Origin: Thermococcus pacificus
Lineage (GTDB): Archaea > Methanobacteriota_B > Thermococci > Thermococcales > Thermococcaceae
Length of the DNA: 64,000 bases
Direction: 5' to 3'
Assembly: GCF_002214485.1 (NCBI RefSeq)
Contig: NZ_CP015102.1
Location: 1,364,001 to 1,428,000, forward strand
Shown here: positions 60,395-62,171 of the stretch, piece by piece
Numbering within the stretch: the first letter of the stretch is position 1
How the letters are laid out: each line of letters opens with the position of its first letter
Position numbers and translations under genes: made by a program
The notes under the pieces: generated by a model
Seen by the model: the letters and a program-made list of their open reading frames with translations, nothing else
Databases searched by the model: none
What the model was told of the DNA's origin: nothing

Positions 60395-60512
60395 GTTTTT
60401 AAGCCCCGTTCGGAGGTTCCATGGGCGATGGCGTCCGCCCGGGCTTCGAGCCGAACCGCCCTCATGGGCTGATGACGCCTGTTCTCCGCTAGAAAATTTG
60501 GGAGGCGGTAGA
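60395..60512 (+). promoter_or_regulatory. Fluoride riboswitch (crcB motif) with promoter and RBS region
   Basis: TATA element GTTTTTAAGCC (60394-60404) places the RNA start near 60420. The aptamer (about 60422-60480) shows GGGCGATGGCGTCCGCCC, then GAACCGCCC, then GGGCTGATGACGCC, the conserved blocks of the fluoride-sensing crcB RNA. Downstream, CCGC (60486-60489) can pair with GCGG (60504-60507) inside the GGAGGCGG ribosome binding site, a likely expression platform acting on translation. A fluoride-responsive riboswitch is known in Thermococcus kodakarensis. The CrcB channel gene is third in order after the aptamer. Confidence 0.85.
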
Positions 60513-61391
60513 ATGGGCTCGAAGCTTTACGAGCTGAGACGCTACATCAACGTAAAGGGTATTCTGGACTACATCGAGGAGAGACGCCACGATGACGGTG
60601 GCTACTGCTTCGTGAGCGTTCTGGACGACACCAACGTGAACGACACTTACTACGCGGTTAAAATTTATGACCTCCTTGGATTAGAGGTTCCTAACGGGGA
60701 GAAGACAATAGAGTTCTTTGAGGAGGCAATCCAGCCCCAGACCGCGGTCGTTGCCATAGCGATGGCGTTAGAGGGACTTGCCCTCCTTGGGGCGAAGGAC
60801 GTTGCAGTGGAGCACACCGACATCGTGTTCACGAAATACAACCCTCTCGAAGGTAAGTTCGCCGTCGGCCTCGGCGGCAGCGAGGAGTTTGGAACGGCGA
60901 CACCTCTTGAAGCGACCTACTGGGTCGTTAAGGCGTTCAGGGCTATTGGGTACGAGTTCTCTCCGGAAGAAAAAGAGGCCATCAGGGAGTTCGTAATGCG
61001 CTTTAGAAACGGGAACGGCTACGGGGTGAAGCAGCCGACGACAACGATGACTTACCAGGCCCTCTATACCCTCAACGCCCTCGGCTACATGCCGCCGAAA
61101 AGCTCGCACTTTAAGAACTGCGAGCTCTGCGGTGATTGGGGCGGCTTTACTGAGGTTCCCTACAGCCTTCCTCCGTACCTTGAACCGACTTTCTATGCAA
61201 CCCGGGGACTTGAGCTCCAGGGAGAGATGCCGTCCTGTCCGAAGAGGCACGTCTGGTTTATACGCCAGCTCCAGAACTCCAACGGCGGCTTCAGGCGTTC
61301 TTTGGAGCTCGGCATCTCAAACTTCCAGAACACCTACAGGGCACTGGCAGTTGTTGAAGCCATGGGTCTCAATCTTTTTAAGGACACCTGA
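60513..61391 (+). CDS. Prenyltransferase/squalene-cyclase-repeat protein in fluoride operon
   Basis: This 292-residue protein has alpha/alpha-barrel repeats of the prenyltransferase beta-subunit/squalene-oxidocyclase type: DDGGYCFVSV near residue 26, NGNGYGVKQPTTTMTYQALY near residue 170 and NSNGGFRRSLELGI near residue 260. Two Cys pairs occur (NCELCGDW). It lacks a visible DxDD cyclase motif. It is the first gene after the fluoride riboswitch, 23 bases before crcB, so a role in fluoride stress is implied by context only. ATG 60513 follows GGAGGCGG; a TTG at 60498 is unlikely. Confidence 0.75.
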   Translation: MGSKLYELRRYINVKGILDYIEERRHDDGGYCFVSVLDDTNVNDTYYAVKIYDLLGLEVPNGEKTIEFFEEAIQPQTAVVAIAMALEGLALLGAKDVAVEHTDIVFTKYNPLEGKFAVGLGGSEEFGTATPLEATYWVVKAFRAIGYEFSPEEKEAIREFVMRFRNGNGYGVKQPTTTMTYQALYTLNALGYMPPKSSHFKNCELCGDWGGFTEVPYSLPPYLEPTFYATRGLELQGEMPSCPKRHVWFIRQLQNSNGGFRRSLELGISNFQNTYRALAVVEAMGLNLFKDT

Positions 61392-61414
61392 AGCGTTAGG
61401 GACGGGGATGGGAC

Positions 61415-61786
61415 GTGAATGCAAGGATAATCATAGCAATCATGACAGGCGGGGCGCTTGGGGCCCTCACAAGGTTCTATCTGTCCGGAATACTCCCCGT
61501 TTACAGAGACTTTCCCGTGGGGACGCTCCTCGTCAACAGTCTCGCGAGCCTCATCCTCGGCTACCTCTACGGCCTCATGTTCTGGGGACTGGACGTTCCA
61601 GCGGACTGGAGGGCATTCTTTGGGACGGGCTTCTGCGGCGCTTTGAGCACGTTCTCGACCTTCTCTTACGAGACGTTCTCGCTCCTGCGCGAGAGGGAGT
61701 ACCTGATGGCGGGCATAAACGTCGCGGCAAACGTTATAATCACCATTGCCTTAGTATTCGTGGGATTTATTCTCGCCCGGAGGTGA
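61415..61786 (+). CDS. crcB: Fluoride ion channel CrcB/Fluc
   Basis: This 123-residue protein has four membrane helices. Family marks are GGALGALTRFYLSG near the start, GTLLVNSLASLILGYLYG near residue 38, and GFCGALSTFSTFSYET near residue 73, which holds the Phe-box and Na+ site. Dimers form dual-topology fluoride exporters. The GTG start follows GGGGATGGG. Placed in a riboswitch-controlled operon; the DUF190 gene begins four bases after its stop. Confidence 0.94.
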   Translation: MNARIIIAIMTGGALGALTRFYLSGILPVYRDFPVGTLLVNSLASLILGYLYGLMFWGLDVPADWRAFFGTGFCGALSTFSTFSYETFSLLREREYLMAGINVAANVIITIALVFVGFILARR

Positions 61787-61790
61787 TTGA

Positions 61791-62171
61791 ATGGTCGAGG
61801 TCGAGCACTGGAACACCCTTCGCCTTAAAATCTACATCGGCGAGAACGACCGCTGGGAGGGGAAGCCCCTCTACAAGGCGATAGTTGAAAAGCTGCGGGA
61901 GATGGGCATCGCCGGGGCAACTGTTTACCGCGGCATCTACGGTTTTGGTAAGAAGAGTCGTGTTCACTCCGCCGATGTCATGAGGCTATCAACCGATCTG
62001 CCGATTGTTATCGAGGTCGTGGACAGGGGCTACAAGATAGAGAAGGCGATATGTGAGATAAAGCCCATGATAAAGGACGGCATGATAACCGTTGAGCCCA
62101 TCATAGTGGTCTGGGTCGGCACCTCTGAGGAAGTTAAGAAGTTCGAGGAAGACGCCATAAGGGAACTCTGA
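61791..62171 (+). CDS. DUF190-family protein
   Basis: This 126-residue protein is a PII-like alpha/beta fold with [20 protein letters not shown] near the start, then [19 protein letters not shown] near residue 43 and [10 protein letters not shown] near residue 70, the family signature. DUF190 genes are often beside crcB, and the protein may bind nucleotide or regulate the channel. It is last in the fluoride operon. Confidence 0.92.

Follow-up and report, generated by a model that had tools for sequence, protein, structure and literature searches.

Fluoride resistance has been described almost entirely in terms of export channels and of the rescue of enzymes that fluoride inhibits, enolase being a classic example of such an enzyme. 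The classic target of the fluoride riboswitch class (RF01734) is crcB. According to the accessible part of a review (PMC11139923), known fluoride riboswitch regulons include exporters, Na+/H+ antiporters, pyrophosphatase, enolase and formate hydrogenlyase; the same part, where it deals with riboswitch-associated genes, names no toroid or prenyltransferase. According to PMC8241225, the fluoride riboswitch of Thermococcus kodakarensis is the sole natural riboswitch of archaea to have been established experimentally, and it was reported to be fluoride-responsive (Speed et al. 2018, as cited in PMC8241225). In this organism an 86-nt crcB RNA was found 'surprisingly' upstream of TK0513 and not of TK0514, the crcB gene, which has its own transcription start site (PMC4247193); crcB may therefore be little affected by the riboswitch. 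Archaea-wide pairing of riboswitch and gene, start-site pairing and a characterization of TK0513 are absent from the excerpts of PMC4247193, and our search of the accessible literature for work combining fluoride, riboswitch, prenyltransferase and archaea found none.

We analysed a stretch of 64,000 nucleotides of the Thermococcus pacificus chromosome (the window; positions 1,364,001-1,428,000 of a genome assembled as a single contig of 1.79 Mb) that has the same arrangement as TK0513-TK0514, with the RNA in front of the TK0513 counterpart, a gene for an alpha/alpha toroid protein. The riboswitch and the local gene order are already known from T. kodakarensis. The archaea-wide pairing of riboswitch and toroid gene, its persistence without an adjacent crcB and the proposed clamp on the translation start go beyond the literature that we found. 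We consider it likely that the locus is a fluoride-induced unit controlled by a block of the start site; the toroid would be its first product and the one most constantly present, with crcB and DUF190 co-located in most relatives. A protein family whose riboswitch is retained even where the channel gene has relocated or was not detected would constitute a further arm of the fluoride response, testable in a genetically tractable archaeon, and the proposed clamp would be a concrete mechanism for an archaeal switch.

The riboswitch-toroid-crcB-DUF190 locus of T. pacificus

A fluoride riboswitch aptamer with an inserted P2 hairpin extends from 60415 to 60488 on the + strand of the window. It matched RF01734 over the full length of the model (1-64/64) with 49.4 bits (gathering cut-off 34, E = 1.2e-10) and no broken pair, so that the aptamer noticed in a sequence-only reading of this DNA was borne out by the covariance model. 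By inspection, GGCGUC in the P1 loop (60430-60435, +) and GACGCC in the 3' strand (60474-60479, +) form the pseudoknot, and both are kept in most relatives. The window leader shares the aptamer fold, conserved core, pseudoknot strands and 5' leader position of the RF01734 class. It differs in its expression platform, where strands of the aptamer seem to pair with the start of translation, and in having the toroid gene as its first target. The TATA-like box TTTTTAAG (60396..60403, +), preceded by an A/C-rich BRE-like stretch, is the likely promoter of the leader; a T-rich TATA-like box occupies the same position in most Thermococcaceae leaders.

The gene order downstream of the riboswitch is toroid, crcB, DUF190. 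The toroid gene (60513..61391, +, ATG start) encodes 292 residues with a protein prenyltransferase beta fold that matched PF00432 with 42.4 bits (cut-off 26.5), and the position of its start is conserved across relatives. crcB (61415..61786, +, GTG start) encodes a Fluc fluoride channel of 123 residues, which matched PF02537 with 98.6 bits (E = 3e-28, cut-off 32.9) and TIGR00494 with 88.3 bits (cut-off 80.45). The third gene (61791..62171, +) encodes a PII-like DUF190/COG1993 protein of 126 residues that matched PF02641 (1.5e-39) and, weakly and under the cut-off of that family, PF00543. These matches agree with the earlier view that the first gene encodes a prenyltransferase-type toroid and not the channel, and that CrcB and then DUF190 follow. 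A candidate internal promoter for crcB is the TATA-like sequence CTTTTTAAGG at 61374-61383, which lies ahead of that gene within the 3' end of the toroid gene. An archaemetzincin (peptidase M54) gene at 59591-60319 (-) is divergent from the riboswitch operon, and the window also holds HgcG RNA (24016-24286) and a tRNA (31452-31526).

Association of riboswitch and toroid gene in archaea

RF01734 was present in 88 of 94 Thermococcaceae genomes (72 of the 74 good ones) and the toroid in 90 of 94 (74 of 74). The first gene after the 103 riboswitch sites of this family was the toroid gene at 88, a HycD/NuoH-like gene (PF00146) at 14 and a contig end at one. The commonest operon (48 sites) was toroid-DUF6062-coiled coil-RHH-like-crcB-DUF190; the toroid-crcB-DUF190 order of the window, found at 17 sites, is a reduced form. 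Most relatives (e.g. L124) have the DUF6062, coiled-coil and RHH-like genes separating toroid from crcB; the window operon lacks all three.

Because riboswitches of this class classically act on crcB, and because crcB-DUF190 follows at 72 of the 88 toroid sites, the riboswitch might serve crcB, the toroid gene being a passenger that lies between. Loci without crcB weaken this reading. In nine genomes, eight of genus g20 (G096-G103) and G036, the riboswitch stays with the toroid gene at a locus that has no crcB; in seven of the nine crcB was located elsewhere, e.g. 67 kb away in G096 and 110 kb away in G036. Searches of the genomes for CrcB returned only a 30-residue fragment in G103 and no match in G102 (77% complete) or in G021 (99% complete), where riboswitch and toroid are present. 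Two near-complete genomes retain the toroid without a detected crcB. The two good genomes that lack a riboswitch differ from each other: in G104 an intact toroid gene follows a leader in which most of the aptamer has been lost and only its 3' end remains (L185, ~1630-1670), and CrcB was not found in the genome, whereas in G112 the toroid is degraded and crcB retained. The passenger reading is also at odds with the separate start site of T. kodakarensis crcB (PMC4247193) and with the riboswitch-toroid pairs of distant archaea described below, and we regard it as quite improbable.

A profile scan found 36 further toroid loci beyond the Thermococcaceae. The riboswitch lies directly 5' of the toroid gene at L217 (Micrarchaeota), L218 and L235 (Bathyarchaeota), L219, L223 and L224 (Archaeoglobales) and L242 (Methanocrinis). 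CrcB (PF02537) was sought in the genomes of these seven loci and not found, a result that is weak for any one genome because most of the seven are MAGs and many of the non-Thermococcaceae genomes are incomplete. A sub-threshold riboswitch match directly precedes the toroid gene at L238; at L234 a distance of 172 nt separates the riboswitch from the toroid match downstream, and an apparent antiporter gene remnant lies beside the riboswitch. A Na+/H+ antiporter gene lies between riboswitch and toroid at L216 and L232, and a gene of roughly 570 codons does so at L230. Among 57 Archaeoglobales genomes, a sample not chosen on riboswitch-toroid pairing, eight of the 12 riboswitches over the cut-off were within 100 nt upstream of a toroid gene on the same strand, for which the chance under random placement is ~1e-33. 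The Methanocrinis locus L242 has divergent riboswitches, one (5716-5791, -) before a Na+/H+ antiporter gene and one (5923-5982, +) before the toroid gene. An enolase gene lies directly 3' of the toroid gene at L219 (6797-8089, Archaeoglobales) and L232 (6993-8231, Methanobacteriaceae).

The toroid, more than crcB, is thus the steady partner of the riboswitch. In the sequence-only reading the toroid was an unexplained member of a crcB operon; seen comparatively, it is itself the main riboswitch partner. Since the association recurs even where no crcB was found, the toroid seems to belong to the means by which archaea cope with fluoride, as a component not characterised so far. Its neighbours, which include CrcB, antiporters and enolase, resemble the known regulons.

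Alternatively, the toroid could assist or regulate the fluoride channel, through the assembly, gating or localisation of CrcB/DUF190. This would fit the toroid-crcB-DUF190 adjacency, often with overlapping or nearly overlapping genes, in Thermococcaceae and at six Archaeoglobaceae loci. These six have no riboswitch beside the toroid gene, which speaks against our main reading. Against a channel partner stand the genomes that have retained toroid and riboswitch although no CrcB was detected in them, and the loci at which the toroid is accompanied instead by a Na+/H+ antiporter, by enolase or by a dynamin-like GTPase; we regard this reading as unlikely. The GTPase locus is that of G050 (L144, 3613-6488). 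There the riboswitch precedes three genes, for the GTPase, for a protein of 101 residues and for a divergent toroid, and crcB-DUF190 lies immediately upstream.

Fold and predicted role of the toroid protein

The AlphaFold2 model of the toroid (pLDDT 91, pTM 0.90) has an alpha/alpha toroid fold and superimposed on the beta subunit of RabGGTase (GGTase II) with Z 24.4 and an rmsd of 2.8 over 260 residues at 17% identity. PF00432 matched all 39 aligned family members with E of 0.001 or better. Sequence searches of the PDB gave E values of 0.15 or weaker with the single protein and 2e-10 with a profile. From these data we conclude that the closest relatives of the toroid are protein prenyltransferase beta subunits. 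It also shares toroid repeats with GGF-type motifs with class II terpene and squalene-hopene cyclases, but is roughly half as long as squalene-hopene cyclase, and no DxDD motif was found in the 39 members. The description 'terpenoid-cyclase-like' given by the earlier reading is therefore apt at the level of the fold, and does not hold for the closest relatives or for the catalytic motif.

Unlike RabGGTase beta, the toroid has no family-wide zinc-binding Cys or His: a fully conserved Cys or His was sought in the 39-member alignment and none was found, the best Cys column (203) reaching 62% overall and 82% outside Thermococcaceae. The GGTase zinc ligands could not be placed residue by residue on the sequence without ambiguity, since several registers are possible in the alignment of the repeats, and we therefore relied on this family-wide absence. 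No alpha subunit partner was seen in the operons examined. As neither a Cys or His conserved throughout nor a DxDD motif was found in the 39 members, the toroid is neither a standard zinc protein prenyltransferase nor a class II terpene cyclase.

Q254, N255, R261 and R262 are invariant in the family alignment and E224 is 95% conserved, which suggests a predicted ligand site. One interpretation is that the toroid is an active enzyme on isoprenoids, whether a protein prenyltransferase, a terpene cyclase or an enzyme that modifies lipids, and that it serves to remodel archaeal membranes or proteins when fluoride is present. The PF00432 matches of all members, the full-length match to RabGGTase beta and the conserved residues are in keeping with such an enzyme; the missing family-wide Cys/His, DxDD and nearby alpha subunit are not, and we find it doubtful. 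We favour a cytoplasmic fluoride-stress protein that would bind an anionic or isoprenyl ligand. The weakest step of our proposal is that the toroid would be a catalytically diverged relative of prenyltransferase beta subunits acting in the cytoplasm under fluoride stress, in which the invariant Arg261-Arg262 pair would perhaps bind an anion or an isoprenyl diphosphate.

Complementarity of the aptamer to the translation start

Aptamer strands are complementary to the translation start of the toroid gene. In the ligand-free MFE fold of the leader, predicted at 37-85 C by a computation that leaves out pseudoknots and is remote from conditions in the cell, the P2 strand GGCUUCGAGCC (60442..60452, +) pairs with codons 2-5 (GGC TCG AAG CT; 60516..60526, +), of which codons 2-4 have nearly invariant nucleotides. 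In the same fold the aptamer strand ACCGCC (60455..60460, +) pairs with GGCGGU (60504..60509, +), which belongs to the Shine-Dalgarno region GGGAGGCGGU defined by sequence and fold (60500..60509, +), and the AUG sits in a small internal loop. Because P2 and P3 use the same strands, this OFF fold and the aptamer fold are mutually exclusive. The CCGC/GCGG stem on which translational control had earlier been suggested is present (60486-60489/60505-60508), but it is a weaker alternative to the pairings just described. Translational control as such holds up as an idea, aptamer strands being predicted to pair with the ribosome site and codons 2-5.

The aptamer/start duplex reached -37.0, compared with -26.7 (sd 3.3) for shuffled start regions, of which one in 200 was as low. 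At least 11 contiguous pairs between aptamer and start region were found in 74 of 87 toroid leaders and in 12 of 1914 control windows (0.6%), which were taken inside genes. Moreover, GGC2 and TCG3 were the only codons at least 90% identical among 113 conserved codons of 4- or 6-fold degeneracy. The pairing of P2 with the start was absent in 13 of the 87 leaders, several of which retain the same start codons; the pairing thus explains the codon conservation incompletely. Inspection of the toroid leaders by eye for two-sided covariation of the start pairing gave no clear case, only G-U changes. Control by an intrinsic terminator was rejected, since terminator-like sites were hardly commoner than in shuffles and none lay between aptamer and gene.

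The control of the toroid gene by the riboswitch is probably translational, as the modelled folds suggest. We propose that without fluoride the pairing of 60442-60452 with codons 2-5 and of 60455-60460 with the stretch beside the Shine-Dalgarno sequence would block initiation. Mg-fluoride would stabilise the 60430-60435/60474-60479 pseudoknot together with P2 and P3, which share those strands, and so free the start. The downstream crcB would then be translated from the same transcript; expression from a promoter of its own is also possible. A more far-reaching and tentative version holds that the toroid is an export-independent fluoride-resistance protein and the main riboswitch target in several archaeal lineages, with the aptamer acting as an antisense start-codon clamp; the toroid could, for example, bind or sequester a fluoride-sensitive metabolite or a metal-fluoride-phosphate complex.

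In fourteen Thermococcaceae genomes a second fluoride riboswitch precedes a HycD/NuoH-like hydrogenase gene set (L061-L065, L067-L070, L073-L075, L138 and L140) and has its own start-site complementarity; a HycD-type gene as second target is a further likeness to the known regulons. These leaders follow the same logic as the toroid leaders with different strands: here UUCCGGG pairs with CCCGGAA in the region of the hydrogenase gene start. Two-sided change was seen only in the hydrogenase-type leader of G087, where both sides of the start pairing have changed together.
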